Assembly (NCBI GenBank): GCA_017560125.1
Contig: JAFYOS010000018.1
Location: 186,001 to 250,000 of the forward strand
Source of the DNA: Bacteroidaceae bacterium
GTDB lineage: Bacteria > Bacteroidota > Bacteroidia > Bacteroidales > Bacteroidaceae
DNA: 64,000 bases
Direction: 5' to 3'
Shown here one piece after another: positions 29,118 to 55,508 of this stretch. The stretch's first letter is position 1; the number at the start of each line of letters is the position of its first letter. The notes under the pieces are model-generated. The model saw only the letters and a program-made list of their open reading frames with translations, had not been told where the DNA came from and ran no database searches. The translations under genes were made by a program, and so were the position numbers.

Positions 29118-30881
29118 CTACTCGGCCAGCTTCTTCGAAATGGAATTGAGCATGGTTGCCACCTCTTCCATCATTGCATGCCAAGGAAGGTTAGTGTCTG
29201 TGAGGCGCATTGTCGCCATCTTTTCGAGCTTCTCCTCGAGCGGTGCAAGCACATCGCTCTTGTCGCCGTACTTCGCACGCAAAATCTTTATCTTCTCGTA
29301 GGCCTCGATACCATCCCTTAGGCGCTCGAAACGCATGGTGGTACGTGCATAGGGATATACCTGATATGTGTCGCCCGATGCCATTGTCCTGAAGCGCGAG
29401 TCGTACTCGGGGCGTGCCGGCCACGAATTGTAGGCCCAGCGCAACTGACCGTCGTAGTCCTTGGAAATGGCGTGCCAGCTAAGCAGCTCCGATTCCCACG
29501 GCTGTGAATAGGTGAAGCTGTTGGGGAAATATGTGCTGCAGCACACATAGAATGTGGTTACATAGCCCTTGGAGCGACGCTCGTTTATCTCGTCGCGGGT
29601 GAGGAAGCCCTGTCGCTGTGCCACGCAGCAGTCCCTTACATTGGGTATGCGGCGGAACGACGCCTTGTTGTCGGCCATGGCAAATCCCAGTTCGGGGGCA
29701 TACTTCTTGATGAGGTTCACCACTATCTCCATCTCTTCGGGCGAGCGTTCATCGGTGGCAATGTTGGTTATCTCGAGCCATCCTTTCGCTCTCAAGTGCT
29801 TCACGAAGTCCTGCAGGAAGGCGCTCCACATCTCCTCGTAGCGCTCGCTCTTGGGGTTTACCGATGATACCTTGAAGCCGTTGTTCTCGTACCAATTGAG
29901 GCGGTTGTTCCACGGAAGCATTGAGTAGCAGTTTATCTGCTTCTTTATGCCAAGCTCCATCATCATTTCCACGTAGCGGTCGAATATGGTGTAATCGAAG
30001 CTCCAGTTGCCCTGCTTGTCCTTTGTCCATATAATCATGTCCTCGTAGTCGTCGAAGGTCTGCGAGCCCCACGGATCGCGGTTCAGCGTGGTGGTAATTA
30101 CCTTCTGTCCTGCTTCGGCAAGGAGCTTCATCTGCTGCCTGAGGGCTTCGAAGTGCTCGTCGCTCCACATCTCGAGGTCAAGGGCGCGTGCCACTGCCGA
30201 CGGGTGCTGCCACAGGTCGAGGTGGTAGCTCCACTGCTCATATCCGGGAAGCGTCTGGTCTATCACCTCCACTTCGAACGGAAGAATGGTCTTGCCGGCT
30301 CCCTTGGCGGTAACGACAATCTCCGATGTGTATCGGCCGGGCTTGGCATCGCTCGGAATATCCACGGTAACCCACACGGGGCGCACGGTCTGCGGCTCCA
30401 TATTGAAGACCTCGAGCGTGTCTATCATGTCGGGCGCAAGGATGGGCTTGTGCTTGGGGCCTCTCTCGCAACGGCAATCGTAACCACCCTCGTCGGCTAT
30501 GGTGTATCTTACGAAACGTGCCTTTGCAATGTCGGCGGGCATCTTGGCGTCGGGCGATACAAAATCCTTGACCTTGCATTTTATGCCATCAATGCCCTTG
30601 CCGCTCCACAGCAGCAGCTGCGCCGATACGCGTTCGCCTTTCCATCCTTCGAGCACGCGCACTGCGACGCTGCTCTTCACGGGTACTTCGCTGCGCGAAT
30701 AGAGCGAGTCGGCAGATACCCATTGTGCTTCCATCTTCTTCGTCGTTTGCCATGCAGCCTTGCTTCTCTCCGATACCTTCACGGGGTCTTTCGCCTCCTT
30801 ATATGTGACGAACTCCTGTGCGTTGACCATTGCAGCCGATGCAAGCAGCATGGTGCATATAAAAATCAGCCTCTTTTTCAT
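29118..30881 (-). CDS. GH123-family exported glycosidase (beta-N-acetylgalactosaminidase type)
   Basis: 587 residues from the ATG at 30881, which gives the signal peptide MKKRLIFICTMLLASAAMVN; the 11-residue upstream extension is rejected. An N-terminal beta-sandwich (about 30-210) precedes the barrel with HLDLWQHPSAVARAL. The adjacent acid pair TNIATDERS (Asp377-Glu378) is the GH123 substrate-assisted catalytic pair (DUF4091/Glyco_hydro_123). GH123 enzymes release terminal GalNAc from glycolipids or mucin-type glycans. Related to the gene at 42120-43811 but clearly diverged. A terminator separates it from the genes upstream, and I see no clear promoter. Confidence 0.82.
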   Translation of the reverse strand: MKKRLIFICTMLLASAAMVNAQEFVTYKEAKDPVKVSERSKAAWQTTKKMEAQWVSADSLYSRSEVPVKSSVAVRVLEGWKGERVSAQLLLWSGKGIDGIKCKVKDFVSPDAKMPADIAKARFVRYTIADEGGYDCRCERGPKHKPILAPDMIDTLEVFNMEPQTVRPVWVTVDIPSDAKPGRYTSEIVVTAKGAGKTILPFEVEVIDQTLPGYEQWSYHLDLWQHPSAVARALDLEMWSDEHFEALRQQMKLLAEAGQKVITTTLNRDPWGSQTFDDYEDMIIWTKDKQGNWSFDYTIFDRYVEMMMELGIKKQINCYSMLPWNNRLNWYENNGFKVSSVNPKSERYEEMWSAFLQDFVKHLRAKGWLEITNIATDERSPEEMEIVVNLIKKYAPELGFAMADNKASFRRIPNVRDCCVAQRQGFLTRDEINERRSKGYVTTFYVCCSTYFPNSFTYSQPWESELLSWHAISKDYDGQLRWAYNSWPARPEYDSRFRTMASGDTYQVYPYARTTMRFERLRDGIEAYEKIKILRAKYGDKSDVLAPLEEKLEKMATMRLTDTNLPWHAMMEEVATMLNSISKKLAE

Positions 30882-30958
30882 GTCGTTATATTTAGTTGTC
30901 GTTAGCAGCCGCAATTTAATGATATATTTTCATACCCTAAAGCAGTTGCATAAAAAAC

Positions 30959-30992
30959 ATACGGCGGTAAGATGTGAAATCTACCGCCGTAT
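30959..30992 (-). terminator. terminator after the sialate O-acetylesterase pair
   Basis: An 11-bp inverted repeat (30959-30969 with 30982-30992), followed on the minus strand by a run of six T. It ends the operon that includes 31013-32482. Confidence 0.8.
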
Positions 30993-31012
30993 ATATAGTT
31001 ATAGGGTGTTGC

Positions 31013-32482
31013 TTATTTGATACCCATATCCTCAATCTCCCAGTCGTCGCTGCGGAACGAGGGGAGGGGAAGACCGAGCAGTGTCATCACATTAGCATCG
31101 AACGAGTAGTTCTGGTATGCGTAACGTACTGCAACGGGGTCGGCTACCGAGTCCGACCACACCTCGATGGTGTTCTTGCACCACATGTGGTTGGCCTTTG
31201 CGGGGTAGAACTTCTTGTCGGCACCTGCAACCTCGAAGCCCTTGGCGCTCTCGCGTGCGTTGAAGCAATCCTGCTGTGTGGGGTCGGCTACATCGAAGTT
31301 GTTGGCGCGTGTCATGTTCGCAAAGCTGAGCTCGAGCTTGTTACCCTTCTTCTCGAACGACTTGAAGCGGGGGTATTTTGCGGGCAAGCCCTCTACACCG
31401 TAGTCGTTGGTGAGTGCAAGGTTGGCAAGACGCTCACCTACCTTGTCCTTTGCTGCGGGGTGGATGAGTGCGAAGTCGCCAATGTCGGTTGTGCAGACGA
31501 TGTCGCAGTTCTCAACCTGGTCGGCAATCTTCCACTGCTCGTCAACGAACACGGCTGTACCGCGCAGTTTGTGACCTTCGTAGCAGTAGGGAGCAATCTG
31601 TGTGAAGTAGAAAGGCATCTTGTCGTTGCCCCAGTCCTTACGCCACGATTTAATCATAGCTGTCTGCAGTTTTGCATAGTCGAACCAGTTGTAACGGTTA
31701 GCGCAGCCCTGATACCAGATGAAACCCTTAGCAGTGAATTTGTTGATGGGGCTTATCATACCGTTGTAGAGCACGCTGTTGGTGTTGGGACCGCGGTATT
31801 TCTTGTCGTAATCGACGTTGCGACCCTCTACGCCGTCGAGGCTCTCCTTGCTCATCCATGCCTCGATGCGTGTACCTCCCCAGTTGGCTGTGATAAGACC
31901 TACGGGTACATTAAGAATCTTCTGAAGCTGCTTACCGAAGAAGTAAGCAGCTGCACTGAAGGTGCGTACTGTCATGGGGTTCGATGTGCGCCACATTGTG
32001 TCGCAATCTTCCACAGGGGTTTCCGATGTGCAACGGGGTACGGTGAACATACGAATATCTGAATATTTGTATGCCTCCTTTATGTGATCCATTGCGTTAT
32101 CAACGGGCTGATACATGTATCCGCCTACGGGCATCTCCATGTTAGACTGGCCGCTGCATACCCACACCTCGCCCAAGAGGATGTTTGTGAGCTCGGTTTT
32201 TTCGCCATCGTTGAATGTGAGTGTGTAGGGACCACCTGCATCCACTGTGGGGATTGTAGTTGCCCATTTACCATCTTTATCGGCTTTTACACTGAATTTT
32301 TCTTTTGTCCACGATGCTGTGATTTTCACAGTTTTATTGGCCTCGGCTGTTCCCCACAGATTAACATCGGCATTGCGCTGAAGCACCATGTTGCTACCAA
32401 TTACCGAGGGAAGAGTAACCTTTGCCTGTGCCACGCCAAATACGCAGGCGAGCATTGCTGCAAGAATTGATATTTTTTTCAT
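31013..32482 (-). CDS. sialate O-acetylesterase-like esterase, tandem copy 2
   Basis: 489 residues with signal peptide MKKISILAAMLACVFGVAQA. It shares the SASA layout: LPSVIGSNMVLQRN, SGQSNMEMPVGG (catalytic Ser113), FIWYQGCANRYNW, and TTDIGDFALIHPAA with the catalytic Asp/His. It has exactly the same length as the next gene upstream and aligns with it end to end without visible gaps, so the two are tandem paralogues. It lies 18 bp after that gene and ends at a terminator. Likely removes O-acetyl groups from sialic acid or other glycan sugars. Confidence 0.88.
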   Translation of the reverse strand: MKKISILAAMLACVFGVAQAKVTLPSVIGSNMVLQRNADVNLWGTAEANKTVKITASWTKEKFSVKADKDGKWATTIPTVDAGGPYTLTFNDGEKTELTNILLGEVWVCSGQSNMEMPVGGYMYQPVDNAMDHIKEAYKYSDIRMFTVPRCTSETPVEDCDTMWRTSNPMTVRTFSAAAYFFGKQLQKILNVPVGLITANWGGTRIEAWMSKESLDGVEGRNVDYDKKYRGPNTNSVLYNGMISPINKFTAKGFIWYQGCANRYNWFDYAKLQTAMIKSWRKDWGNDKMPFYFTQIAPYCYEGHKLRGTAVFVDEQWKIADQVENCDIVCTTDIGDFALIHPAAKDKVGERLANLALTNDYGVEGLPAKYPRFKSFEKKGNKLELSFANMTRANNFDVADPTQQDCFNARESAKGFEVAGADKKFYPAKANHMWCKNTIEVWSDSVADPVAVRYAYQNYSFDANVMTLLGLPLPSFRSDDWEIEDMGIK

Positions 32483-32500
32483 GACTTGTTACCTTATTGG

Positions 32501-33970
32501 TTATTTTATTTCTTCGTCTTTAATCTCCCAGTCGTCGCTGCGGAACGAGGGCAATGCTTGGCCCAGCTGTGTGCGTACATTTGCATCGAACGAGTAGTTG
32601 CAGTAGGCATAACGAACTGCTACGGGATTGGGAACCGAGTCCGACCATACTTCTATGATATTGGTCCACCAGCGGTGGTTACCCTTTGCGGGATAGAATT
32701 TTCCATCCTCACCGGCAACCTCGAAGCCCTTGGCCTCTTCGCGGCCATAGAAACAGCTCGACATTCTGTAGTCGAGGGGGTCGGTGGTGTAGGGAGGTGC
32801 AATATTCTTGAAGTGAAGCTCGAGCTTGTTGCCCTGCACTACAAAGTAGTTGAAGCGGGGTGCCTTTGCGGGCAAGCCCTCTATTCCATAGTCGTTGCTA
32901 AGCGCAAGCATGGCAAGGCGCTCCGATACTCTCTTTTTCTTCAGCGGGTGTATGTGGCTGTAGTCGCCGGCGTCCTGTGTGCAGGCTACATCGCAGTTCT
33001 CGATGATGTCGGCAGCCTTGTACTGCTGGTCGATGAAGAGGGCGTTCAAGCGTTTTCTGGGGCCTTCGTAGCAGTAGGGTGCAATCTGTGTGATGTAGAA
33101 AGGCATCTTGTCGTTGCCCCATATCTGGCGCCACAGTTTCACTTGGGCCTGCTGCAGTTTTACGTAGTCGTACCAGTTGTGACGGTTCGATTCGCCCTGA
33201 TACCAGATGAAGCCCTTGGCTGTGAAATTGCAGATGGGGAGTATCATGCCGTTGTAGAGCGCAGCGTGTGCGTTCTCGTTCTTGCGGCGTGCGTCGTAGG
33301 CTGCGTTGCGGCCTTCGATGGCTGTGATGCTCTCTTTGCTCATCCATGCCTCGATGATGGTACCACCCCAGTTTGCTGTTACGATACCTACGGGCACGTC
33401 GAGCATTTTGTTGAGCTCCTTGGCGAAGAGGTAGGCAATAGCACTGAATGTGCGTACGGTCATGGGGTTCGATGTGCGCCATATGGTGTCGCAATCCTCT
33501 TTCGGGGTGTCCGAAATGCAACGGGGTACGGTGAACATGCGGATGTTGGGGTACTCGTATGCCTCGGCAATGTCTTTCTCCACGCCGTCGATGGGCTGGT
33601 ACATGTATCCACCTACGGGCATCTCCATATTGGATTGTCCGCCGGCTATCCACACCTCGCCCAGAAGGATATTGGTCAGTTCGGTCTTGTCGCCATCGCT
33701 GAAGGTCATTGTGTAGGGGCCTCCTGCATCGCCGGTGGTGATTTTTGTAGCCCACTTGCCATCCTTGTCGGCCTTGGCGCTGAACTTCTCCTTTGTCCAC
33801 GATGCGGTGATGGTTACTTTCTTGTTGGGTTCTGCCTTGCCCCACATGTTCACTTCGGCGTTGCGCTGAAGCACCATGTCGTTGCCGAGGATTGAGGGCA
33901 GAACGACTTTAGCCTGCGCTGCGGTCAGCAGGCAGGCTAAAGCGATTAAAAGAAATGATATTCTTTTCAT
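32501..33970 (-). CDS. sialate O-acetylesterase-like esterase, tandem copy 1
   Basis: 489 residues with signal peptide MKRISFLLIALACLLTAAQA. It contains LPSILGNDMVLQRN, AGGQSNMEMPVGG (Ser113), FIWYQGESNRHNW and TQDAGDYSHIHPLK. Copy 2 has CAN where this copy has the ESN block typical of the family, so their active sites differ slightly. It is 24 bp downstream of the GH110 gene, a natural pairing if O-acetyl groups block exoglycosidases. Confidence 0.88.
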   Translation of the reverse strand: MKRISFLLIALACLLTAAQAKVVLPSILGNDMVLQRNAEVNMWGKAEPNKKVTITASWTKEKFSAKADKDGKWATKITTGDAGGPYTMTFSDGDKTELTNILLGEVWIAGGQSNMEMPVGGYMYQPIDGVEKDIAEAYEYPNIRMFTVPRCISDTPKEDCDTIWRTSNPMTVRTFSAIAYLFAKELNKMLDVPVGIVTANWGGTIIEAWMSKESITAIEGRNAAYDARRKNENAHAALYNGMILPICNFTAKGFIWYQGESNRHNWYDYVKLQQAQVKLWRQIWGNDKMPFYITQIAPYCYEGPRKRLNALFIDQQYKAADIIENCDVACTQDAGDYSHIHPLKKKRVSERLAMLALSNDYGIEGLPAKAPRFNYFVVQGNKLELHFKNIAPPYTTDPLDYRMSSCFYGREEAKGFEVAGEDGKFYPAKGNHRWWTNIIEVWSDSVPNPVAVRYAYCNYSFDANVRTQLGQALPSFRSDDWEIKDEEIK

Positions 33971-33994
33971 ATTGGTTTTTCAATTTCGAATTTT

Positions 33995-35698
33995 TTATTC
34001 GATGCTTACGTTGTCGCAGTGTTTGATGACGAAGGGGTTCTTCTCCTCGCGTGCATAAACATAGTCGGTGCTCTCCTCAATCTTGTTGTTGCGGAATGTG
34101 ATGCCGTCGAAGCAACAGAGGTAGAGGATACGGGGGTCGAATGTACGGAAGGTGTTGTTCTCCACTACGATGTTCTTGTGGTAGCGGCTGTTCTCCTGCT
34201 CGCTGATGCGGCTGTTGTATGCGATGTGTGCATCACCCCATGTCTTGCAACCATAGAGGCAGTTGTCGAATACGTTGTTGCGCACCTGTACGTTGCGTAC
34301 ACCCGACTGCTCGTACCAGTAGCTGCCGTCGCCCTCGAAGAGGATAGAGGCACCGGGAACGTGGAAGTAGTTGTCCTCGATGATGACCTCGCCACGTGAA
34401 CCGATGAGAAGACCGCGTGCACGGTTGTTGGCAAAGTGACAGCCCTTGATGAGTACATCGGGGTACTGATCCTCGCATGCGATGGGGTCCTTAATCTGGA
34501 TCTGCTCGGGGAGGGGCTCGGTGAATGTGATCTCGGCAAGCTCGCTGTTGATCTTTCTGATTGATTTCACAATGCGGTGAGCATAGGTCATCATGGTCTT
34601 GTGGTTGGCAATCTCCATGTTCATGCCGGGACGAACGAAGTCCTTACCGTAGTTGTACCATACGAGGATTGTGTTCTCGTTTACAATCTCGCGTGTCATA
34701 GCATACCAGCCGTGGATGTTGGTTGCATCGTCCTTCTGGTTGGTGAATTTACAGTCGATCATGCGCAAGTAACCACCGCAGTTGATGAAGTGTGTAGCGT
34801 CGGCTGTTGCACTGATGATGCGGTTGCTGCCGGGTGTGGGAACCACCTGCACCTTGTTGAGCTCGATGTCGCGTACGCGCTGTACGATGAAGCCCATACC
34901 GCCGCAGTGATAGAGGTTTACATTCTCGATGAGCACAGTGTTACACTCGTCGAATGTGAAACCGGGGTTCGAACGGCGTGCAGCACCGAAGGCCATGATG
35001 TTACCTACTGTACCAGTGAGATCCTTGAGGAAAATCTTGAAGTTGCCGTTGGGAAGAGCCTCGGCCTGCAAACCGCTCCACAACCAATAGTCGTGAACGT
35101 AGTATGCTACCTCCTTCTTCTGACCGTCGAACTCGAGAAGGCTGCCGTAGGGGTAAGTGATGTTGTTCTTGTCGCGTATGCGCAGAATGCCGCTCTGGAT
35201 GTCCACCTTGTAGCTCTCGGGGAACTTGAGCTCCAGCCAACCGTCACCCACTGCCATAATCTCACCCTGTGAATTGAAGGTGTGTGTGAAGTCGATGTTC
35301 AGGTCCTTGATAGTGATGTTGTTAGAATTCTCTACGTTGAAGGGCGATACAAAGCCTGTGAAGAGAAGTGTGGTACCGTTACCCTCGATTGTGAGGCCGT
35401 CGGTGTTCTCGATGTTGATGGCGATGCGTTTTTTGCCCTCCGAGTTGTTGCTGATGTACTGATATCTTTCGAAGCAGTACTTGTCCTTGATGCACAATGT
35501 GTCGCCGGGGAACACCAATGTACTGTTCTTGTACTTGAGGCACTCCTCAAGAGCAAGACGGATGCCGGGATATGCGTCATCCTTCATGTCCTCTGTAATG
35601 TAATCCTTTACATATACAGTCTTTCCTTCGGGAGCAGAAGAGCAGGCTGCCATTGCCATCATTGCCGCGAAGGCAAACATTTTGAATATTTTCTTCAT
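33995..35698 (-). CDS. GH110-family alpha-1,3-galactosidase-like lipoprotein
   Basis: 567 residues. The N-terminus MKKIFKMFAFAAMMAMAAC has a plausible lipobox (Cys19). The rest is a right-handed parallel beta-helix with repeated short strands. Three conserved Asp are visible: Asp300 in SATADATHFINCGG, and Asp323-Asp324 in TNQKDDATNIHGWY. This matches GH110 enzymes, which remove alpha-1,3-linked galactose from blood group B or linear alpha-Gal epitopes. Other polysaccharide-cleaving beta-helix families lack this Asp pattern. It lies between a six-hairpin glycosidase (90 bp, with a hairpin in the gap) and a sialate O-acetylesterase gene. Confidence 0.85.
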   Translation of the reverse strand: MKKIFKMFAFAAMMAMAACSSAPEGKTVYVKDYITEDMKDDAYPGIRLALEECLKYKNSTLVFPGDTLCIKDKYCFERYQYISNNSEGKKRIAINIENTDGLTIEGNGTTLLFTGFVSPFNVENSNNITIKDLNIDFTHTFNSQGEIMAVGDGWLELKFPESYKVDIQSGILRIRDKNNITYPYGSLLEFDGQKKEVAYYVHDYWLWSGLQAEALPNGNFKIFLKDLTGTVGNIMAFGAARRSNPGFTFDECNTVLIENVNLYHCGGMGFIVQRVRDIELNKVQVVPTPGSNRIISATADATHFINCGGYLRMIDCKFTNQKDDATNIHGWYAMTREIVNENTILVWYNYGKDFVRPGMNMEIANHKTMMTYAHRIVKSIRKINSELAEITFTEPLPEQIQIKDPIACEDQYPDVLIKGCHFANNRARGLLIGSRGEVIIEDNYFHVPGASILFEGDGSYWYEQSGVRNVQVRNNVFDNCLYGCKTWGDAHIAYNSRISEQENSRYHKNIVVENNTFRTFDPRILYLCCFDGITFRNNKIEESTDYVYAREEKNPFVIKHCDNVSIE

Positions 35699-35787: not shown

Positions 35788-37830
35788 TTAGATTTTGATG
35801 TTCTTAATCTCCTCACCGATGCGTACAGTGTACTTCTTCTCTTTCTTACCATTCTTGATGGTTACCTGTGCGCGTGTCTCAGACTTGCGTTTAACCTCGA
35901 TGTCGAAGTCGCCGCCGAATGCCTTGATGTGGCGCAGAGCCATCTCGTTCCATTCAGAGGGCAACTGGATTGTGAGGTTGAAGCTGTTGAAGCCTGCGGG
36001 CTGGATACCGAAGAGACCTTCGGTGATGATACGGCAGTAGAGACCGCTCTCGGCCGAGAGGTGACGCTGTGAACCCTCGGGCCATGCCTCGATGGGGTAG
36101 GGAACGTGTGTGCCGAGGAGACGGCGGTTAGAGTAGTCGATGAGCTGCTTTGTAGCCTTGTCTGCTGCACCTACAACATATACGCCGCGGAGTGCATAGA
36201 GGGTTGAGCGATCCCAGAATGTAGCATCGCCCTCGGCTGTGAGAAGACCGTCGATTGTACACAATTTGTCTGAATAGAGAGCGTCGATTGTGCCCTGTGC
36301 GCGCTCTTTGAAACCGAATACCAAGGGCATGCAGATCCATGAACGGAGCACTGTGTTGCCATCGTAGTAGCGATATGTCTCGTAACCGCTTACGTTAGCC
36401 GAGAAGTAGTTGTTGATAGCCTTCTTCAGAGCAGCAGCCTGCTTTCTGTATGTTGCAGCAAGCTTGGGCTCGCCTACAAGGGGAGCAAGGTAAGCTGCCA
36501 TTACAAGACCGTCGTAGTAGAGAGTAGCTGTACAGAGGTTAGCCTCACCCGAGGGGAAACGACCTTCGAGCTCGTCTCTGTCTGAACGGGGAACACCTGC
36601 GTCGTTCAACTGGCGGCGTGTGTATTCAAGACACCATTTGATGAAAGGCCAAATCTCCTTAGCCTCTTCTTTGTCGGCACGTGCGAGGAGGTAACGTGTA
36701 GCTCCGTGAGCGTTCATAGCAGCGTCACCACGGTCGCCAGCACCACCCCAAGTGTCGATGCCCTCGGCGATGATTGAGCTGGGGATTTTGTTGTACTCGT
36801 CGTTCATGTAGCGAGCGAAGAGCTTGTAGCAGTTGAGCGCCGACTCGTTACCTACCTGGTAGCCCATGAAGGGGAACAAGGGGCTTACATACTCCGACTG
36901 GTCGTTACACCAGATAGCAGCGTAGTAAGACTCGCCGCCGGGGCCGTGCATCAAACCACCCTTGGTGCGGTAAATACTCTCGGAAGCACGAATCTTAGAG
37001 AAACGGAACTCGGTGTCGATAACCTTCTCGGGTGTTTCGAGAACGAGTGCGCCGTCGATGCTGTTCTTGATGTAGTCCATACGTTTAGCGTACTCAGCCT
37101 TCACGTCGGGCTGGAGAGCCTTCTCGGTCTTCTCGCGGTAAGCCTGGAAAGCAGCGCCGAACTCGATGGTCTGACCGGGCTCAATCTTGTATGTGCCTGC
37201 GCCGTAAACCTCAGACTGGATGATGTATGTACCATCAACGCCCTTAGCGGGGTCTGTCTTCAGCTTCTGAACGAACTCGGGAACAGCCACTGTGAGTGCG
37301 CGGCCTGTGATGTTCTTCACCTCGTATGTCTCACACATCATGGGAAGTGTGGTGCTGGGGAAGATAGTTGTTGTAATCTCGACAACGGGAGAGGGAGCTC
37401 TTTTGCGGGCTGCACCTGTGTTTACGATGCCGATACCATACTGGCTAACAACCTGAAGAGCACCGTTGATAGATACCTTCTTCACGCCCAACTGCACGGG
37501 AGCGAGGTTGTTGATACCGAGCATAGAGATAACGTCGGTCTGTACGCGGTACATGAGTGAACCGTGTGTGTTGTTGGGGATTGTGCGCAACATGGGGAAT
37601 ACCAATGAACGCTCCTGTGAGAAGTTCTTGTTGGCATCCACGTTCCAACGTGTTACGAACGATACCATCTCGCCACTCATCTCCATGTGGTCGCTGTAGG
37701 GGAGAGTCTCGTCGTTGAGAATCATCTCGATGGCATTAGTTTCGGGATTGATTGTCCAGCACTGTTTCTGTGCGCTTACCGTTACCACTGACATGAGCAG
37801 CAACGCAATTAACAATTGAATTTTTCTCAT
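35788..37830 (-). CDS. six-hairpin glycosidase-like exported enzyme
   Basis: 680 residues with a signal peptide (MRKIQLLIALLLMSVVTVSA). An N-terminal beta-sandwich (about 20-270) is followed by an (alpha/alpha)6-like region. Candidate catalytic acids lie in AEGIDTWGGAGDRGDA, RSDRDELEGRFPSGEANL and EAWPEGSQRHLSAESGL. The C-terminus is a beta domain as in GH65/GH95-like enzymes. I cannot assign a GH family. Context (GH110, sialate esterases, M60-like protease) suggests exo-action on host glycans. It lies 27 bp after the M60-like gene. Confidence 0.65.
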   Translation of the reverse strand: MRKIQLLIALLLMSVVTVSAQKQCWTINPETNAIEMILNDETLPYSDHMEMSGEMVSFVTRWNVDANKNFSQERSLVFPMLRTIPNNTHGSLMYRVQTDVISMLGINNLAPVQLGVKKVSINGALQVVSQYGIGIVNTGAARKRAPSPVVEITTTIFPSTTLPMMCETYEVKNITGRALTVAVPEFVQKLKTDPAKGVDGTYIIQSEVYGAGTYKIEPGQTIEFGAAFQAYREKTEKALQPDVKAEYAKRMDYIKNSIDGALVLETPEKVIDTEFRFSKIRASESIYRTKGGLMHGPGGESYYAAIWCNDQSEYVSPLFPFMGYQVGNESALNCYKLFARYMNDEYNKIPSSIIAEGIDTWGGAGDRGDAAMNAHGATRYLLARADKEEAKEIWPFIKWCLEYTRRQLNDAGVPRSDRDELEGRFPSGEANLCTATLYYDGLVMAAYLAPLVGEPKLAATYRKQAAALKKAINNYFSANVSGYETYRYYDGNTVLRSWICMPLVFGFKERAQGTIDALYSDKLCTIDGLLTAEGDATFWDRSTLYALRGVYVVGAADKATKQLIDYSNRRLLGTHVPYPIEAWPEGSQRHLSAESGLYCRIITEGLFGIQPAGFNSFNLTIQLPSEWNEMALRHIKAFGGDFDIEVKRKSETRAQVTIKNGKKEKKYTVRIGEEIKNIKI

Positions 37831-41651: not shown

Positions 41652-41670
41652 TCGACTATTCGTTATACAG

Positions 41671-41709
41671 CATCAGCCACGCTTCGCAGGCGTGGCTGAT
41701 GTTTTTTTT
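41671..41709 (+). terminator. terminator of the fasciclin lipoprotein gene
   Basis: A 12-bp stem (41671-41682 with 41690-41701) is followed by eight T. Confidence 0.9.
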
Positions 41710-43818: not shown

Positions 43819-45906
43819 TTATTTAATCTCCATTTGGAATGTGCTTGCGGGCAGCGAGTCGCCGTTGATGAGGTTGGCGGTGGTGTAGGGTTGCCAACCG
43901 TAGCGTATGCGGGCCGGCGCTTTCACCTGTTTACATTTTATATATATGCAACCATCCTTTATTTCGGCAGTAGCGGGGTGGTAGAGCCCCTGTGCCTCGG
44001 CGAGCTCGAATGTGCGGGGCGCCTCACCGTCGCTTGTGGTGAGCCCCTGCGCGTTGTCCAGCTTCAGACACACCGTGCCACGTGCGTCGCACTGTGCAGC
44101 TTTTGCCGTTGGCCCTTCGGGGACGATATTTTTGTAGCCATATGTGCCGTAAAGTGCCTGTCGGGCAAGGCGTTGGCCTATGGGCTGCTTCTCCTTGGGG
44201 TGAACATCGTATGGGTTGCCGTGGTCGGACGATACGGCCATGGCGCATTTTTCGTGGGCGAGCGCCAGGCGCCTTTGTGCATCGCGGAAATGGGGCCACG
44301 ATGGGCGGTTAAGGCTCGACAACTGAACGAAATAGAAGGGCAACTCGTCGTTCCACGCCTCGCGCCAGCTTTGCAGCATGGCGCCAAAGAGTGCTTCGTA
44401 GGCCTCTACGTTGTGCGCGTTCGATTCGCCCTGATACCATATGGCGCCACGCACAGGGTAGCCGGCGATGGGGGCAATGCCCGTTTCGAACAGGTAGCAC
44501 GGCTCGTAGGGGTGGCGTTGCAGGCGGTTCTTGCTGTTGGCAATGTTTTGCGAGGCGCGTTGCCTTACCCATGGCTGTATGAAATCGTTCGCACGCCAAT
44601 TGTATAGGATATCAACAAGGTAGGGGTGGTGCTCGAGCGTGCGGCGGTCGATGAACGACTCGGCAGGGGCGCCGCCAACGGCATTGCATATAAGGCCTAT
44701 GGGCACCTGTAGCGAATCGGCGAGCATGGCGCCAAAGTGATAGGCCACAGCCGAAAAATCGGCGGCGTTCTCGGGTGTCAGCTCTTGCCATGCGGTGGGC
44801 TTGTAGTAGTCGTGACGGTTGAGCTTTACGAGGTCGATGGAATCCCATGCAACGGGGTTGGTTATTACGCGGGGCTTCATGTCGTATATGCGTATGCCGC
44901 GCCCTTTGGTCGATGCTATATGCTTTTGTGCTGCTGTGCCCTCCTTCAGCATGAAGGCCATGTTCGATTGTCCCGAGCAGAGCCACACCTCGCCCACGGC
45001 TATATTTTCGAATGTAACGACTTTGCCCTCGCTCTTCACTTCGAGCACCAATCCTTCGCCGCGGCTCAGTGGGGCGAATTCCATCTGCCATTTGCCGTCG
45101 GGCAGGGCTCGTGTGCTCCTTTTCTCTTTCCCGAGGCGGGCGGTGACCTTTGCGCCGGCGTTGGCTGTTCCTTTGAGCAGGAACGGCTTGTCGCGCTGTA
45201 TTATCATGTTGTTGCCATAGATGGCCGGCAGCGACAGGCCGCCGTATTCTCCGGTAATGGCGCTGTAAACGGTCTTTGCAATTATTCCCGCGCCCTCCTC
45301 GTTGGGGTGAAGCGCATCGGCAAAAAGGTCGGGGCGGTCGTACAGCGGGCTGTGAAGGTCAATGAGCCCTGTGCCGGCAATGGCTGCCGTTTCTTCTATG
45401 GCTTGCTGAATCTGTGCGTGCCAGTCGCGTGTGCCCGATTTGAAGCGCGGGTGGGCGTTGAAGATGGGTGTCATGCGGCATATCCATATTTCGACCTTGG
45501 GGCTTACGGCGCGCAGGGTATCTATCAGTGCCAGGTAGTCGGGGATGAATTCGTCGCGATAGTCGGGCCAGTTGCGTGGGTCGGTGTCGTTGAGCCCCAA
45601 GTGTATTATCGCAAGGTCGGGAGCAAATTCGAGCGCCGCCTCATATTCGGCCTGCTTGTTATAGGGGCGATGTCCCTTGCGCAGCAGCGTGGCACCCGAT
45701 TTTCCAAAATTCCTTACATCGTATTTTTCGCCAAGCATTGTGCCTAGTTGTGCGGGGTACGAGGTGGCTGCCGCGTTAGCATGTCCGTAGCCGTAGGTCA
45801 CGCTGTTGCCTATGCACGCGACCTTTTTCCTCTGCTCGCCGGCAAACGTAGCTGCGACGGTGAATAGCAGTAATATGCCGAGCATTACAATCTTTTTATA
45901 TATCAT
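43819..45906 (-). CDS. two-domain esterase: SGNH hydrolase fused to sialate O-acetylesterase-like domain
   Basis: 695 residues with signal peptide MIYKKIVMLGILLLFTVAAT. Domain 1 (about 25-215) is SGNH/GDSL: ACIGNSVTYGYGH, HLGLNDTD and FADALHPNEEGAG. Domain 2 (about 220-695) is SASA-like: LPAIYGNNMIIQRD, CSGQSNMAFML, IWYQGESNAHN and VSSDHGNPYDVHP. Both domains keep a Ser nucleophile and a His. Two esterase activities on one chain may strip different acetyl positions. It is the first gene of the operon with GH123 and ABM. Confidence 0.85.
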   Translation of the reverse strand: MIYKKIVMLGILLLFTVAATFAGEQRKKVACIGNSVTYGYGHANAAATSYPAQLGTMLGEKYDVRNFGKSGATLLRKGHRPYNKQAEYEAALEFAPDLAIIHLGLNDTDPRNWPDYRDEFIPDYLALIDTLRAVSPKVEIWICRMTPIFNAHPRFKSGTRDWHAQIQQAIEETAAIAGTGLIDLHSPLYDRPDLFADALHPNEEGAGIIAKTVYSAITGEYGGLSLPAIYGNNMIIQRDKPFLLKGTANAGAKVTARLGKEKRSTRALPDGKWQMEFAPLSRGEGLVLEVKSEGKVVTFENIAVGEVWLCSGQSNMAFMLKEGTAAQKHIASTKGRGIRIYDMKPRVITNPVAWDSIDLVKLNRHDYYKPTAWQELTPENAADFSAVAYHFGAMLADSLQVPIGLICNAVGGAPAESFIDRRTLEHHPYLVDILYNWRANDFIQPWVRQRASQNIANSKNRLQRHPYEPCYLFETGIAPIAGYPVRGAIWYQGESNAHNVEAYEALFGAMLQSWREAWNDELPFYFVQLSSLNRPSWPHFRDAQRRLALAHEKCAMAVSSDHGNPYDVHPKEKQPIGQRLARQALYGTYGYKNIVPEGPTAKAAQCDARGTVCLKLDNAQGLTTSDGEAPRTFELAEAQGLYHPATAEIKDGCIYIKCKQVKAPARIRYGWQPYTTANLINGDSLPASTFQMEIK

Positions 45907-46068: not shown

Positions 46069-48057
46069 TTACATTCTTATTTTCATAGCCTTGTTGCCGA
46101 TGCGAACGATGTAGATACCCTTGTCGAGCGCTATCTTCTCTCCGTCGTAGTTGGCCACATTCTCTACCGGCAGGCCGGTGATGTCGTAAACGGTTATTGT
46201 GGCACCCTGTGCGTTGGTGAACTGTATGCCGTCGGCTGCAATCTCTATGGCGGGGCTCTCAGCCTCTATGTCGTTGATGGCTGTAAGCTCGTGCTCCTCT
46301 ATCTTGGTGAATTTGCCCCATATCGGGTGGGCCTTGTAGGCGTCGATGGTTCCCTTGGGCACGTAGAGGGTAGAGATGCTGTAGTGCGAGCTGCTTGAAT
46401 GGAGTCCGCTGGTCGCTGTGGGAGGTGTCTCGCACAGCATGTATATGCCGGTTATTGCGGTGCAGTTGTAGAATGCTAGGTCGCCAACGCTTTTGGTCTT
46501 GCTGCCTATGGTTACATCCTTCAGCTTGGTGCAGCCTTGCACTACATAGGCGCTTATGGCGGTAAGGCTCTCGGGGAAGACGATGCTTGTTATGTTTTTG
46601 CAATCTTTGAAAGCGTAGTTTCCTATCGATTCCAAACCTTCGGGCAACGATGGGTTGTTCAGCACCGAACAACCGCTGAATACATAGTCGCCAATGCTTT
46701 TGATGTTTTTGCCTATTGCTACGTTCTCGAGTGCGGTGCAGTTCTGGAATGCGTTTTTGCCGATATGCTCAAGGCTTTCGGGCAGTGTAATGTTTTTCAT
46801 TTCCTTGCATCCTCTGAAGGCGTAGATGCCTATATTCTCGAGCCCCTCGGGCAGGGTAATCGATTTCAGGTTGGTGAAACCGTCGAATGCATAGCCGGCA
46901 ATGGCCTTGGTGCCCTCTTTCACGCTTATCTGCTCGTTTGCGGGCATGGTGCCTTTGTAGCCATATAACAGCTCGTTCATGTAGAGCACTCCTGCGGGCT
47001 GGCAATCGTACCATGCGGTGTTGTGGAATGCTTCATCGCCCATGGCTACATCGTTGCTCAGCATGGTGATGTACTCCAGGCAATAGCACTCGTAAAAGGC
47101 CTGCTTGCCAATGCTTTTTACGCCGGCGCCTATTGTCAGCTCACCCAGGCTGCTGCACTGCTTGAATGCGCCGTCGCCAATGCTCTCCAAACCATCGGGG
47201 AAGACGATGTCCTCTACGCTGCTGCACTCCTGGAAGGCATACTTGCCGATGCTTTTAAGGCCGGCGCCCAATGTAAGTTCCTCCATGCTGAAGCAGTACT
47301 GGAATGCGTAATTGCCTATGGTTGTCACAGCGTCGGGGATGACGATGCTCTCGAGGTTGCTGCAATCCTTGAATGCGTTGTCGCCAATGGCGGTTACGCT
47401 CTCGGGGATGGTGACCCCAAGGATATATTCCGAATTTGTGTTCGTTTTCGAAAATGCACCACCGCTGATGCTTGTTGTACCTTCGGCAATCACAAATGTG
47501 GTGTCTTTCTCCAGTTGGCCTTTGTAGCGATAGAGGATGCTGCCCATATAGAGCAATCCATCGGGCTGGCCCTTGTACCACTCGGTGTAGTCGAATGCGC
47601 CGTTGCCAAGGTATGTGACGTTGGCAAACGAGCAATTTATGGTGCTGAGCGCGGTGCAGCCGTTGAAGGCATTCTCGCTGATGGTTGTTACGCTCTCGGG
47701 GATTGTAATAGAGGTAATCTTTGTTGCGTTCAGGAATGCTGTGCTACCAATAGTGGTGACAGTATTGGGGATGGTGACGCTGGTCAGGTCGGTACATGCG
47801 TTGAAGGCTGCACCACCTATTCCGGTTACGGTGTATGTTATTCCATCGTAGGTTACGGTCGATGGGATGACAATGTCACCCGAATATCTTTGTCCTGTAC
47901 CGAAAAGGATGTTTAGGTCGTAGCCGACATCAACGGTAGCTTCGCTCTCCGAGGTGATGTTATAGAATATTCCATCCACATTGAAGCTTTGTGCATTTGT
48001 GGTTGCATGGCACAATAGCAGTGCTGTCACAACCAATAGTTTTCTAAGGTTTTTCAT
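46069..48057 (-). CDS. BspA-like leucine-rich repeat surface protein with C-terminal sorting-type tail
   Basis: 662 residues from the ATG at 48057 (MKNLRKLLVVTALLLCHATT). An upstream in-frame extension is rejected because the promoter lies inside it. More than a dozen 23-residue LRR_5 units follow the pattern LTSVTIPNTVTTIGSTAFLN. The repeats run to about residue 560. The C-terminus (TVYDITGLPVENV and GIYIVRIGNKAMKIRM) resembles the T9SS-type C-terminal sorting domain. BspA-like proteins bind host matrix proteins or other cells. Confidence 0.85.
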   Translation of the reverse strand: MKNLRKLLVVTALLLCHATTNAQSFNVDGIFYNITSESEATVDVGYDLNILFGTGQRYSGDIVIPSTVTYDGITYTVTGIGGAAFNACTDLTSVTIPNTVTTIGSTAFLNATKITSITIPESVTTISENAFNGCTALSTINCSFANVTYLGNGAFDYTEWYKGQPDGLLYMGSILYRYKGQLEKDTTFVIAEGTTSISGGAFSKTNTNSEYILGVTIPESVTAIGDNAFKDCSNLESIVIPDAVTTIGNYAFQYCFSMEELTLGAGLKSIGKYAFQECSSVEDIVFPDGLESIGDGAFKQCSSLGELTIGAGVKSIGKQAFYECYCLEYITMLSNDVAMGDEAFHNTAWYDCQPAGVLYMNELLYGYKGTMPANEQISVKEGTKAIAGYAFDGFTNLKSITLPEGLENIGIYAFRGCKEMKNITLPESLEHIGKNAFQNCTALENVAIGKNIKSIGDYVFSGCSVLNNPSLPEGLESIGNYAFKDCKNITSIVFPESLTAISAYVVQGCTKLKDVTIGSKTKSVGDLAFYNCTAITGIYMLCETPPTATSGLHSSSSHYSISTLYVPKGTIDAYKAHPIWGKFTKIEEHELTAINDIEAESPAIEIAADGIQFTNAQGATITVYDITGLPVENVANYDGEKIALDKGIYIVRIGNKAMKIRM

Positions 48058-48095
48058 ATATGTCTGTTGTTTTTTTTGAATAATTAAGAATATCG

Positions 48096-48127: not shown

Positions 48128-48309
48128 CCTGTCGCCGGAAATATGTGTCATTGACGGCGTATATCGGTGGCGCTATGTGACCTATGCTCTTATTTTTACA
48201 GCTTTTTATCCGTAGCCACAAATTTAAGGGTTTTTATCTTTCGTTTTCGGATATAAATGCTTATCTTTCACAATTTTTCCATCATAGGAATTACTTAAAC
48301 AATATAAAT

Positions 48310-51300
48310 ATGAAAAAACAATTACTATTTACACTTGCAACGTTGCTGTGTTGTACCCTTGCGTGGGGACAGTATGTTGCACCCGAAGTAGGGAAGGTCT
48401 ATCGCATTCTCAACGCCGGTAGAAGCTATCACTGCATGGCTGCCAACTACAAGGCGAACATCATCGAGACCATGGCAAAGAGCGACAACGCCTACGACCA
48501 GATGTGGATTCTCGAAAAGGCCGGCAGCAACAGCGTGTACATTAAGAACGGACTTACCGGAAAATATGTGCAGCATGCCTCTTCTATGTCCGAGCTGTTC
48601 AGAATGGCCGACACGCCCAAAGAGTTCTTCATCAAGAACCATGCGAAGGACAAGAATTTCTACAACATTTTTACATCGTCCAGCGGAACACGATGCTTCC
48701 ATGCGAGCCCCTCGAGCCAGTTGGTGGTATGGACTCCCTCTACAACAGAGCCCGAATCTTCGGAATGGGTATTCGAGGATGCAGGCGTGAGCATCGATGT
48801 ACTTACCGAGCAGCAGGAAATCTTCTATGGCAAGCAGCAGGTTATAAACAACACCGACAAGTACAATGCCGTACTTGCCACCATTTTCACCGACCGTTCG
48901 TGCAGTGAGCTCAAGGCTGAGTATGCAGCCATGAGCGACAGTGAGCTTCTTGAGGCCACAAAAGAGCTGCCCGAAGATATGCAAAACATGGCGCTGAAGA
49001 TAAAGAACAGCACATGGGGCAAGCGCGAGAAGGAATTCCGCATCCGCGACTACAAGCCCTATTCCAATGCCGACAAGTGGTATAAAATTCTCCAGACCAA
49101 CCAGTACTCAAGGCTTAATAACCCCACTGGTATCTATGGCAACGGACACGAGCTGTTGTATGTGTTCGTAGAGGGCGAAATTAAAGATGGTGCCTTCCTT
49201 GGCCTCGAGGAGGTGCTCAGCACAAACACAAGCGGCACGCTCGATACACTTAAAGTGGGCCTTAACATCATCCCCGTAAGTTTCAATCTCTCGAGCCTCT
49301 TCGTTCGTTACGATGTGAACACACACGACAGCGGCAAGGTGCTCGCCGACTACCCCGATATCAAGATTCACATCGAGAATGGAGTGGTTAACGGCTACTG
49401 GGACAAGAGCCGTCACACCGACGAGGACTGGCGCGACATTACACGCAACCTTGCCACTCACCCTGTTATTCAGGTGAAGGGCGACCGCAACATCTATCAC
49501 ATGGAGAAGAAGTGGATAACCGCAAGCAACTGCTGCCCCGAAACCATCACCGACGCCATCAACTGGTGGGACGACATGCTCCGCTGGGACCACGAGCTCA
49601 TGGGCTGGGACAAAGGCATATACGGAGTGAAGTTCAACAACCTCCACTGTGCCATCACCCTCGACGACAACAAGACCTACATGGCATCTACGGCCTACCG
49701 CACACAGTACCATGTGAAGCAGATATACAAGATACTCAACTACAACAACCTGATGTCGAACCACGACAACGTGTGGGGCCCCGGACACGAGGTTGGCCAC
49801 TTCAACCAGGCTTCGATAGAGGTTATGGGTACAAGCGAAATTAGCGCCAATTTCTATGCTAACTACACAATGTATAAGATGGGTCGATATATGTCGCGTG
49901 GCGACACCCTTGGCATTCTGTTCAAGGACTACGCCGAGGAGAAGGCATGGCCCACCATCCTGGGCGAGGTGAGAATGAGAATGTGGTGGCAGCTTTACCT
50001 CTACTTCCACATGGCCGGCAACGACACCGAGTTCTATCCCAAATTGTTCACTCTGCTGCGCGCTGACGGCATCGATTCCTCACCCACTCATGTGCAGGGC
50101 AGCAAGGACATCCTTCTCTTTGCCGAAAAATGTTGCGAGGCAGCCAATATGGACCTCACCGATTTCTTCAAGGTGTGGGGATTCTTCCATCCTATGCAGC
50201 AATTGGTAGGTAAGGAGTATACAAACCAGGATCTCACCATCACACAGGCGATGCTCGACAAGACGCTCAAGAAGATGGCTTCGTATAGCCGCAAGGCACC
50301 CGCCATCGAGTTCATTGAGGACCGCATCGAGCCCATCGCACGAACAGACGGTGGCAGTGGCTACAAAACCAAGAGCGTCTATTCGGTAGGTCAGTGTGGC
50401 GACGTGGGTCAATATACATACTACAACCATGAAACCGCGCCCGAAGCCATCGGATACAGCTACACCAAGATTGGTAAAACCATCATCATCGAAAAGGGTA
50501 CCGGTGCAGTGGGCTTCAAGGTATATAACGGCAAAGGCGAGTACAAGGCCCTGTCGAACAAGTACAAATTCACCATCCCCGAGGCGCTTGCTGCCGACCC
50601 CGGCATGAAGATTGTTGCTGCCGAAGGCGATGGCGACGAGGTGGTGCTGAAGCCCTATGCCGAGACAGGAGACGCGGCAGCACTCCAGGCGCTCAAGAAT
50701 GCTCTCACCACCATTGAGTACTACACCAAGCTGATCGATAAGAACGGCGTGAAGGTAGGTTATTACTATGCCGACAAGACTGCCCGCCTTGTGGAACTGA
50801 AGGCCGAGGCACAGGCAGCGGTCGATAACGCCGACCAGAGCGCTCACACCTATGCCGAGTACCTTACACTCATCGACAGCGAGCTGTGCAAGATATACAC
50901 ATCGAATTCGATGGTGAAGATACAGCCTTTGAACTATTACAACCTTACCGTTAAGACCACTTCGCAGAACATGCTCAGCGCCACTGCAACCGCCTTCAAT
51001 GTATCGAAGAGCGGAAGCACAAACAAAAGCAAAAAGTGGATGTTCGAGACCAGCGACGACAGCCTCTATTACATAAAGAACGAGAATGGCTTCTATATAG
51101 AGACCATGCCCAAGGGCGGCACTGCCACTGTAACCACAAACAAGGGTGGCGCCATCAAATTCCGCGTAGTGCCCGTGGAGAACGGCTACTGGTACATGGA
51201 GCAGGATAATGTTCATGGCGCTTGCTTGGCCATTAAGAGCGACAACACCATACAGGGCGATGACTACAGAGAGCAGGAAAGCTGGTGGGGTATAAAGCTC

Positions 51301-52890
51301 GTCGAGGACAACCAGACACCATACGATACCGAGCTGCTGAATGCCACTATTGCGACAGCCGACAGCGTTGTGGCCGATCTGCTCGACGCCTCTGCGCTCG
51401 CCGGTGGCAACTACGTTGTCAACGATGGCATTTATGCCAAAAACCCCGACCTTGTGGCCCTTGCGAAGGTGCTCGTAGCCGAAAACGGCAATGCCAAGAG
51501 TGTGCTCTCGTCGGGAACTACTCAGGACTACGCTTCGGCTGCCAAGACACTTCAGGCAGCGATAGACGCGGTGGTTGCGGCCTACGAAATCATTCCTCAG
51601 TATCCCTCGGCCGACCTCGACAACGGCATCACATGGTACTACATACAGTACAGCGAAAATAATAAGTACGTGGGCGTTGAGCGCAGCACCAAGCGCTATC
51701 TCAACTATCTGATGCACACCGACACCCCGAAAGAGAGTGCCGACGACTACATGCTGTGGGCATTCATCCCCACCGGCAATGCAAACGAGTATTACATATT
51801 CAATGCCGGCAGCGGTTGCGCGGTGTTCGGCGCAAGCAACCTCGAAGCAATGGGTGGCGGCGAGGCGCAGCCCTACACACTGTCGCTCGACACCGCCAAA
51901 TTGGCCTTTACCATCGGCAACGGTGGCAGCTACATCTATGGTTCGGGCAGCTATCCCAAGCTGAGCGCCAAGGCCAACTACTATCGACTGGAGAAGGCAT
52001 TCGTCAGCGACAACGCCATGTTGGCAGCCACAAGCGGCGAGCCCTATGGCCGTAAAATATATGGCAAGCCTGTGACCGACGAGAGCTATGTATATGTGGG
52101 TGGTGCTGCATCGGCGGCATATGTCGATGTTCGCGATAACAGCAACGCTGCGCTCATCGTTGATAAGTGCAAACAGATGTTGTCGGCAACCAACACCATA
52201 TATTACACAAGCCTCGATGCTGCGGCGGCTACAGCCAGCAACGTGGTTGATAAGGATGGCAACTGCAAGCAGTTCGATATGTACTATGGTTCAATATACT
52301 ACGTGCCCGAGCAGTTTACAGCCGCAACGGTGACCTACACCGATGTGAATGCCGAGGCCGACAATGTTCGCCCCATGGCACTTCCCTTCATCCCCACCAA
52401 CGATATCACCGTTGCCCAGCCCAGCCAGTTCGGCAAGATTGATGGCGTGAGCACCCTCACACTCGCCAAGGCCGAATTTGCAGTGAACACACCTATGTTT
52501 GCGGTAGCCAACGGCGGAGCCATCAATGCCACAGCCTCTAACGTCACCATGGCTGTAAGCACCACAGAGGATATGGCAACCGACTACCTGTTGATGTCCT
52601 ACGTGGGCACAAGCTACAAGATTAATACCTACATAAAGGGTGTTAATAAGTATCTGAAGGCTACACAGGCCGGTACATTGGCACCCTTCGAGGTGAACAT
52701 CAAGGCGTTGCCCGGAGCATCTATCAGCGCTACATCCATCGAGCTCTACTACGATGTATCGACAGGCATCGAAGGCATCGAGGCCGAGGATGGCGAAAAA
52801 ATTATCTACGACCTCACTGGCCGCAGAATAGAGAAGATAACCGCTCCCGGTGTATATATCGTTAACAAGAAAAAGGTAATAGTAAAATAG
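48310..52890 (+). CDS. giant M60-family (enhancin-like) mucin-type glycoprotein protease
   Basis: 1526 residues from ATG 48310 (MKKQLLFTLATLLCCTLAWG); two TATCTTTC boxes upstream (48234-48241 and 48262-48269) may be its promoter, which rules out the longer frame. Order: signal peptide, a ricin-like beta-trefoil region (about 28-190), the M60 protease with GPGHEVGHFNQ (His493, Glu494, His497) and Glu510 as probable third ligand, then long beta-rich regions that look like further trefoil units (about 880-1040 and 1095-1280), and a C-terminal tail (YDLTGRRIEK, GVYIVNKKKVIVK) of sorting-domain type. M60 enzymes cleave O-glycosylated mucin backbones. Divergent from the LRR gene. Confidence 0.85.
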   Translation: MKKQLLFTLATLLCCTLAWGQYVAPEVGKVYRILNAGRSYHCMAANYKANIIETMAKSDNAYDQMWILEKAGSNSVYIKNGLTGKYVQHASSMSELFRMADTPKEFFIKNHAKDKNFYNIFTSSSGTRCFHASPSSQLVVWTPSTTEPESSEWVFEDAGVSIDVLTEQQEIFYGKQQVINNTDKYNAVLATIFTDRSCSELKAEYAAMSDSELLEATKELPEDMQNMALKIKNSTWGKREKEFRIRDYKPYSNADKWYKILQTNQYSRLNNPTGIYGNGHELLYVFVEGEIKDGAFLGLEEVLSTNTSGTLDTLKVGLNIIPVSFNLSSLFVRYDVNTHDSGKVLADYPDIKIHIENGVVNGYWDKSRHTDEDWRDITRNLATHPVIQVKGDRNIYHMEKKWITASNCCPETITDAINWWDDMLRWDHELMGWDKGIYGVKFNNLHCAITLDDNKTYMASTAYRTQYHVKQIYKILNYNNLMSNHDNVWGPGHEVGHFNQASIEVMGTSEISANFYANYTMYKMGRYMSRGDTLGILFKDYAEEKAWPTILGEVRMRMWWQLYLYFHMAGNDTEFYPKLFTLLRADGIDSSPTHVQGSKDILLFAEKCCEAANMDLTDFFKVWGFFHPMQQLVGKEYTNQDLTITQAMLDKTLKKMASYSRKAPAIEFIEDRIEPIARTDGGSGYKTKSVYSVGQCGDVGQYTYYNHETAPEAIGYSYTKIGKTIIIEKGTGAVGFKVYNGKGEYKALSNKYKFTIPEALAADPGMKIVAAEGDGDEVVLKPYAETGDAAALQALKNALTTIEYYTKLIDKNGVKVGYYYADKTARLVELKAEAQAAVDNADQSAHTYAEYLTLIDSELCKIYTSNSMVKIQPLNYYNLTVKTTSQNMLSATATAFNVSKSGSTNKSKKWMFETSDDSLYYIKNENGFYIETMPKGGTATVTTNKGGAIKFRVVPVENGYWYMEQDNVHGACLAIKSDNTIQGDDYREQESWWGIKLVEDNQTPYDTELLNATIATADSVVADLLDASALAGGNYVVNDGIYAKNPDLVALAKVLVAENGNAKSVLSSGTTQDYASAAKTLQAAIDAVVAAYEIIPQYPSADLDNGITWYYIQYSENNKYVGVERSTKRYLNYLMHTDTPKESADDYMLWAFIPTGNANEYYIFNAGSGCAVFGASNLEAMGGGEAQPYTLSLDTAKLAFTIGNGGSYIYGSGSYPKLSAKANYYRLEKAFVSDNAMLAATSGEPYGRKIYGKPVTDESYVYVGGAASAAYVDVRDNSNAALIVDKCKQMLSATNTIYYTSLDAAAATASNVVDKDGNCKQFDMYYGSIYYVPEQFTAATVTYTDVNAEADNVRPMALPFIPTNDITVAQPSQFGKIDGVSTLTLAKAEFAVNTPMFAVANGGAINATASNVTMAVSTTEDMATDYLLMSYVGTSYKINTYIKGVNKYLKATQAGTLAPFEVNIKALPGASISATSIELYYDVSTGIEGIEAEDGEKIIYDLTGRRIEKITAPGVYIVNKKKVIVK

Positions 52891-55504: not shown

Positions 55505-55508
55505 ATCG

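Follow-up and report, generated by a model that had tools for sequence, protein, structure and literature searches.

How a bacterium could feed on host glycoproteins with a set of enzymes that stands apart from a SusC/SusD importer is the question raised by a stretch of 64,000 nucleotides, referred to below as the window, from a Bacteroidaceae bacterium (genome G000; GenBank assembly GCA_017560125.1, contig JAFYOS010000018.1, positions 186,001 to 250,000). On its minus strand lies a run of five genes, H-G-F-E-D (39219 to 31013), encoding glycosidases, esterases and a protease-like protein. Degradation of host O-glycoproteins of the mucin type, as proposed in an earlier note on this DNA (the original prediction), is the best reading of the gene content. 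The answer put forward here, at a probability of about 0.6, is that the H-G-F-E-D operon dismantles alpha-galactose-capped host O-glycoproteins and represents the enzyme part of a locus of the polysaccharide utilization locus (PUL) type, with SusC/SusD missing from it and no regulator among the proteins scanned.

Gene content of the operon

The first gene of the operon, H (37858..39219), encodes a small gluzincin that is M60-like by hidden Markov model (HMM) and has an N-terminal domain resembling a carbohydrate-binding module (CBM). It is followed by G (35788..37830), encoding a six-hairpin glycosidase-like enzyme, by F (33995..35698), encoding a GH110 alpha-1,3-galactosidase with a lipobox, GLAA-B barrels I and II and a beta helix (PDB 7jw4, E 4e-113), and by two related carbohydrate esterases with SASA domains, E (32501..33970; Pfam SASA 48.3 bits) and D (31013..32482; 64.6 bits), the latter with a signal peptide and a GQSN motif. 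Downstream on the same strand, C (29118..30881) encodes GH123a with a signal peptide (Pfam GH123_cat 317 bits; PDB 5l7r, E 9e-130); its start was corrected, several gene starts being found inside the listed open reading frames. The GH123 catalytic domain exceeds the cut-off in C and in a second protein, J, and both contain a DER motif, presumably the catalytic Asp-Glu pair of the family.

Across the wider region 29118..52890, the families named in the original prediction are largely right by HMM: two GH123, one GH110, three SASA proteins, two HExxH gluzincins, a fasciclin lipoprotein and a leucine-rich repeat (LRR) protein, with the GH110, GH123 and M60 assignments all above their cut-offs, that of H narrowly (28.9 vs 25.8 bits for M60; motif HEIGH...E). 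The predicted model of H combines a CBM-like domain with a part matching M1 aminopeptidases, and PDB sequence searches returned no relative of it. All of the enzymes belong to known kinds apart from G, for which no Pfam or NCBIfam model is over the cut-off.

Units and the conserved block

The original prediction treated 29118..52890 as one compact neighbourhood. A single 24-kb locus is not supported, since strong predicted terminators split the region into five units (C-H, I, K-J, L and M) and relatives keep only D to H linked. A predicted intrinsic terminator with a 13-bp stem and a T-rich tail, a match to the consensus only, follows C (29096-29067, minus strand). The intergenic gaps from H to D measure 18-89 bp and the gap between D and C 131 bp. 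A search for G across relatives' contigs gave 10 loci, eight of them from close relatives (85-95% identity), of which five are taken as the same records as genomes G011, G020, G024, G028 and G041. Around G in these eight, H is present in 8/8, D in 7/8, F in 6/8, E in 5/8 and C in 1/8 (L026); the contig of L027 breaks off inside G, that of L023 stops soon after its single SASA gene, and both end short of the place where C would be. Comparison of gene order across Bacteroidales genomes, suggested as a check in the original prediction, shows in these relatives that the D-H block recurs as a unit, and the core is probably a five-gene operon, H-G-F-E-D, with GH123a as an optional sixth and last gene.

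The surroundings of the block differ among relatives, whose cassette contigs are 38-72 kb long and leave longer-range linkage beyond view. In five carriers of the block, the matches to J and K and to M sit on other contigs than the block. In G041 and G024 it adjoins relatives of window genes 15137-17775 (blastn); in the window, those genes are separated from C by about 11 kb and the block has the opposite orientation. On the cassette contigs of G011, G020 and G028, blastn matched nothing else of the window, the one exception being C in G020. The block is therefore best described as an operon subject to rearrangement whose neighbours share its theme. In G011, a GH97 gene immediately precedes H. 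The GC content of C-H is 0.52 vs 0.51 around it, giving no signal of horizontal transfer. A Bacteroides-type promoter pattern occurs three times in the window, where 0.8 occurrences are expected, and not at all upstream of H, and a sigma-70 scan was uninformative (9 found vs 17 expected). The hosts named for the relatives are water buffalo, cattle and deer in six of the eight, no host being named for the other two.

SusC/SusD-linked counterparts

A counterpart of the cassette is found in G425, a genome of another Bacteroidales family (L086/L107), in the order divergent hybrid two-component regulator, SusC, SusD, BT_3987-like protein, H', H, G, GH97, F and D, the cassette proteins being 37-53% identical to those of the window. 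The two loci have the order H', H, G, F, D in common, but the G425 locus has the regulator, SusC, SusD, the BT_3987-like protein and GH97, and has neither E nor C. A SusC/SusD pair, taken as the mark of a PUL, is present in the G425 version and absent here. Two relatives of H in L086 fall below the M60 cut-off (24.3 and 22.7 bits). In G068, a congener of G425, a single open frame of 1631 residues (L075:7597-12489) joins GH110, a serine hydrolase domain of the beta-lactamase-like type and G, and this fusion is preceded by a hybrid regulator and followed by SusC/SusD. Given the SusC/SusD-linked H-G-F-D genes of G425 and the G068 fusion, the cassette of the window is read as a mucin-type locus without SusC/SusD. 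Two versions of one enzyme cassette, linked to SusC/SusD in one case and free of it in the other, thus form a natural pair for asking to what extent glycan feeding in Bacteroidales requires a dedicated importer.

Protein G

The predicted model of G, which has moderate confidence, consists of an (alpha/alpha)6 barrel and an N-terminal beta-supersandwich, that is, the six-hairpin fold. The naming of G as a six-hairpin glycosidase therefore holds for the modelled fold and not for a family, given that none of the Pfam and NCBIfam HMMs exceeds its cut-off (best Pfam match 15.2 vs 24.5 bits); PDB sequence searches gave no relative either. According to the model, G shares its overall fold with the six-hairpin families GH78, GH65, GH94 and GH95, but identity is 9-16% among the matches listed and no HMM match is over the cut-off. 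An alpha-1,2-fucosidase of the GH95 kind, following GH110 on the B antigen, is an attractive candidate that is not supported, GH95 ranking 49th in Foldseek and being absent among the 50 VIA matches listed. G366 has a true GH95 gene within the gene run that contains G. Invariant acidic residues of G are E284, D310, E313, E356, D366, D369, E402, D419, E420, E422, D540, E581, E585 and E594.

G was matched in 41/393 genomes of the order, representing 30 of the 207 Bacteroidales genera sampled, and GH110 in 40/393 (38 over the cut-off). Both occur together in 16 genomes vs 4.2 expected (p 1e-7, with phylogeny and genome size ignored). Moreover, the gene run that contains G includes GH27, GH36, GH97 or GH110 genes in no fewer than eight of the 25 distant genomes considered (G056, G068, G425, G326, G152, G358, G366 and G265), a count made on part of the neighbours and given without a background rate. 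These alpha-galactosidase families near G tie it to alpha-galactoside breakdown, and not to one linkage. G thereby represents a widespread glycosidase-like family tied to GH110 by fusion and by operon. The H profile matches five of the 393 genomes, and only G000 and G425 among these also matched G. H-type gluzincins occur in G079 (C55), G066 (C42) and G221 (C174), three other genomes where G was not matched.

Importers and M60 proteases

A whole-genome search confirmed that the window has no SusC/SusD over the cut-off: SusD gave no match, and SusC a single sub-threshold fragment (19464-19697), which lies inside a non-SusC TonB-dependent receptor (17853..20117, plus strand; Plug 59.3 bits; weak TIGR04056, E 2e-4). 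This receptor is a candidate outer-membrane importer among the proteins scanned, the window scans having covered part of the genes. No linked regulator, hybrid two-component or sigma/anti-sigma, was found among the window proteins scanned, which represent part of the window. When the SusC/SusD search was extended beyond the window, as the original prediction had recommended, the two SusC over the cut-off and the two SusD of the genome were all found in one locus (C13:374.6-391.1 kb; L083:82-16256 corresponds to C13:375.1-391.3 kb), about 136 kb from M. Transport encoded elsewhere, one of the two alternatives in the original prediction, is in this sense possible, with this locus as a candidate. 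Three fasciclin-type proteins (two by Pfam) lie between the two SusC/SusD pairs of the C13 locus.

The larger of the two gluzincins in the region is M (48310..52890, plus strand, its own unit), an M60 O-glycopeptidase with a ricin-B-like lectin match, a tail resembling those of the type IX secretion system (T9SS), an M60 domain over the cut-off (M60 81 bits, M60_C 43 bits) and the HExxH...E motif (HEVGH...E). It matches PDB 5kd2 (E 1e-73), which we take to be BT4244, and in a sequence search also the O-glycopeptidases of B. caccae. M has no match to the T9SS type A sorting domain, although its tail resembles one by eye. The genome encodes seven long M60 proteins, of which M and three others end in T9SS-like tails, likewise by eye, one of them seen only in its C-terminal part. 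Two long M60 proteases with such tails stand in tandem at L085:3261-10163; near them lie an LRR protein and the final part of a further M60 (L085:18564-19997, 66% to M), a layout reminiscent of L and M in the window.

Among 44 genomes of the same genus, six carry the cassette (G000, G011, G020, G024, G028 and G041) and 38 do not, G035, with a weak match to G (38% over 101 residues), being counted as a non-carrier. M60 matches, which include H and may include fragments, number 8, 5, 8, 8, 8 and 10 in the carriers, respectively, vs 0-5 in the others (medians 8 vs 2). SusD matches number 2, 3, 1, 2, 0 and 2 vs 2-9 (medians 2 vs 6); both contrasts have a Mann-Whitney p of about 1e-4, treating 44 related genomes as independent. 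SusC over the cut-off numbers 2, 2, 1, 2, 0 and 2 in the carriers vs 8, 7, 7, 4, 6 and 7 in G001, G003, G006, G022, G029 and G038, comparators chosen for completeness (92-98%, where five of the six carriers have 82-87%), a choice that favours the contrast. The carriers are 82-98% complete, within the 55-98% of the others, so incompleteness alone cannot explain the SusD and M60 contrasts; the G000 assembly has 6.4% contamination. Since GH123b is 77-95% identical in the five other carriers (the G020 match being partial) vs at most 63% in other congeners, the six carriers probably form one clade.

An expansion of M60 genes within one genome is also described for Bacteroides caccae, with 16 genes vs eight matches here (PMC13355702); the likeness concerns the M60 count alone, and the expansion here goes with few SusC/SusD genes. 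From these contrasts and the distribution of G, a broader scenario can be drawn tentatively, as possible rather than probable: G would found an uncharacterised glycosidase family whose members work as tandem partners of GH110 and other alpha-galactosidases, with alpha-Gal/B-type host glycans as substrates. One ruminant-gut clade would have made the locus importer-free while most of its SusC/SusD pairs were lost and its secreted M60 O-glycopeptidases multiplied, so that protease-led mucin feeding took the place of glycan import.

Specificity of the GH110 enzyme

Members of GH110 have been employed for removing the blood-group B antigen. F has the GLAA-B domains and the catalytic Asp triad (Asp-321, Asp-344 and Asp-345 in PdGH110B) and, in an alignment map, keeps Asn-85/348, Arg-265/451/453, Glu-480/488 and Trp-486, so that the catalytic residues, those of subsite -1 and Arg-451 of subsite +1 are common to F and PdGH110B (PDB 7jw4). 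In contrast, at +1' Lys-195 corresponds to a gap, Lys-207 to Gly185 and Arg-208 to Ser186. In PdGH110B, these three residues are tied to a +1' pocket that is basic and closed and from which the fucose of the B antigen is excluded; that enzyme is inactive on this antigen (PMC7939477). The pocket of F is predicted to be open and less basic, and the loss of the closing residues therefore suggests that F tolerates the fucose of B-type ends, despite the linear-specific nearest structure.

Working model and alternative explanations

The compartments, order of action, substrate and import route of the proposed model are inferred, by analogy with PUL BT4240-50 of Bacteroides thetaiotaomicron; there (PMC11992087), a surface M60 enzyme cuts mucin, glycopeptides are imported and periplasmic glycosidases finish the degradation. 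M and its long M60 paralogues would cut mucin outside the cell, and the glycopeptides would enter by a TonB-dependent route. In the periplasm, D and E may take off O-acetyl groups, F would remove terminal alpha-1,3-Gal, and probably that of B-type ends bearing fucose as well, and G might remove a sugar of the same epitope; GH123 would remove GalNAc, and the small gluzincin H would trim the glycopeptide. Both systems would share an M60 glycopeptidase, exo-glycosidases, a mucin target and surface proteolysis with periplasmic trimming. PUL BT4240-50, however, has SusC/SusD, a binding protein and sigma/anti-sigma genes in the locus, with GH2 and GH109 as its glycosidases (PMC11992087), while the cassette here has GH110, GH123, esterases and G, with no SusC/SusD in the window and no regulator among the scanned proteins. 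Among the matches listed in searches of the open-licence PMC literature, no report was found of a mucin PUL without SusC/SusD or of GH110 and M60 in one PUL. Bacteroidaceae with mucin-metabolism genes are described among metagenome-assembled genomes from sheep and goats, in a study whose main text does not mention GH110 and GH123 (PMC11155115), and Pseudoprevotella muciniphila, considered as a named relative, is reported to have 2.92 Mb, 46.4% GC and SusC and SusD homologues (PMC8136628).

Several observations weigh against this reading and its extension to the clade. No sialidase, fucosidase or hexosaminidase was over the cut-off among the cluster proteins in Pfam; L024 is truly without F and E and holds H-G-D only, so the cassette varies; signal sequences judged by eye are the basis for assigning compartments; the SusD and M60 counts show no general trade-off within the 38 non-carriers (rho 0.09), and their contrast may be a single clade event. 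The nearest solved enzyme to F is the marine, linear-specific PdGH110B, inactive on the B antigen (PMC7939477), and G stands beside GH28, GH95 and GH36 genes in G366 and beside GH78 and GH27 genes in G358, so its substrate may be a non-host glycan. Together with a sulfatase upstream of H in G020 (L057), the last two points favour a cassette directed at a non-mucin alpha-galactoside (a dietary galactolipid, a galactan or carrageenan-like glycan, or a plant arabinogalactan), with proteases nearby by chance. Such a target is nevertheless unlikely: the operon of the distant G425 locus likewise contains H gluzincins, F is without the Lys and Arg residues that close the +1' pocket of PdGH110B, a GH123 gene adjoins D in G000 and G020, and the named hosts of the relatives are land mammals.

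The absence of an importer from the cluster, the T9SS-like tails of M and L seen by eye, and a carrier, G028 (85% complete), with no SusC over the cut-off and no SusD match at all, could also be explained by a wholly extracellular system, public or pre-digestive, from which the cell takes only monosaccharides and peptides and for which SusC/SusD is not needed. The original prediction had considered that the products might act only outside the cell. For the operon this is unlikely, since the export signals of C-H, J and K are plain signal peptides, except that F carries a lipobox whose cysteine is not followed by an acidic run, and the operon proteins have no T9SS-like C-terminal tails, which suggests a periplasmic location (signal peptides, lipoboxes and tails being judged by eye throughout); furthermore, the same genes accompany SusC/SusD in G425. 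Glycopeptides might instead be imported or bound for the cassette in trans, by the SusC-SusD-fasciclin locus C13 or by the fasciclin lipoprotein I. I is 40% identical to two proteins lying between a SusD and the next SusC of that locus (one of them not Pfam-scanned), and on one contig of G041 K and J occur together with a TonB receptor and two fasciclin genes. This form of import is doubtful, as congeners without the cassette have SusC matches of very similar score and the C13 locus is probably ordinary equipment of the genus, a C13-type locus is absent from the assembly of carrier G028, and no regulatory element shared by the C13 locus and the cassette has been shown. Periplasmic trimming of imported mucin glycopeptides by the H-G-F-E-D operon is the preferred reading.

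Neighbouring genes

Divergent from H and forming its own unit, I (39612..41651, plus strand) encodes the fasciclin-domain lipoprotein (Pfam Fasciclin 51.8 bits) and is followed by a predicted terminator at 41669-41703 (plus). The operon K-J, on the minus strand, consists of K (43819..45906), a double esterase with GDSL and SASA domains (Pfam Lipase_GDSL_2 107 bits, SASA 57.8 bits), and J (42120..43811), the GH123b beta-N-acetylgalactosaminidase (Pfam 363.9 bits; PDB 5l7v, E 1e-154), after which a terminator is predicted at 41800-41771 (minus). L (46069..48057, minus strand) is an LRR_5 protein (472 bits) in a unit of its own, with a T9SS-like tail that scores 21.7 bits against the T9SS type A sorting domain TIGR04183 (cut-off 23) and a predicted terminator at 46049-46014 (minus); the one after M is at 52914-52943 (plus). 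LRR genes recur near the cassette, as in G011 (L067:13368-18478), where the cassette is directly followed by a pair of large LRR proteins (37% and 45% to L).

Beyond M, N (53681..55519, minus strand) encodes a putative DUF4838 glycosidase (DUF4838 347 bits, Glyco_hydro_67N 27 bits), a neighbour whose membership is doubtful. By sequence, N matched antibody chains alone in the PDB (E 0.014 or worse), taken as chance. Its GC content is 0.43 vs 0.51 around it, possibly indicating a recent arrival. A tRNA-Met gene is located at 57739-57814, and two near-identical predicted terminator hairpins are found at 57738-57711 and 57584-57557.

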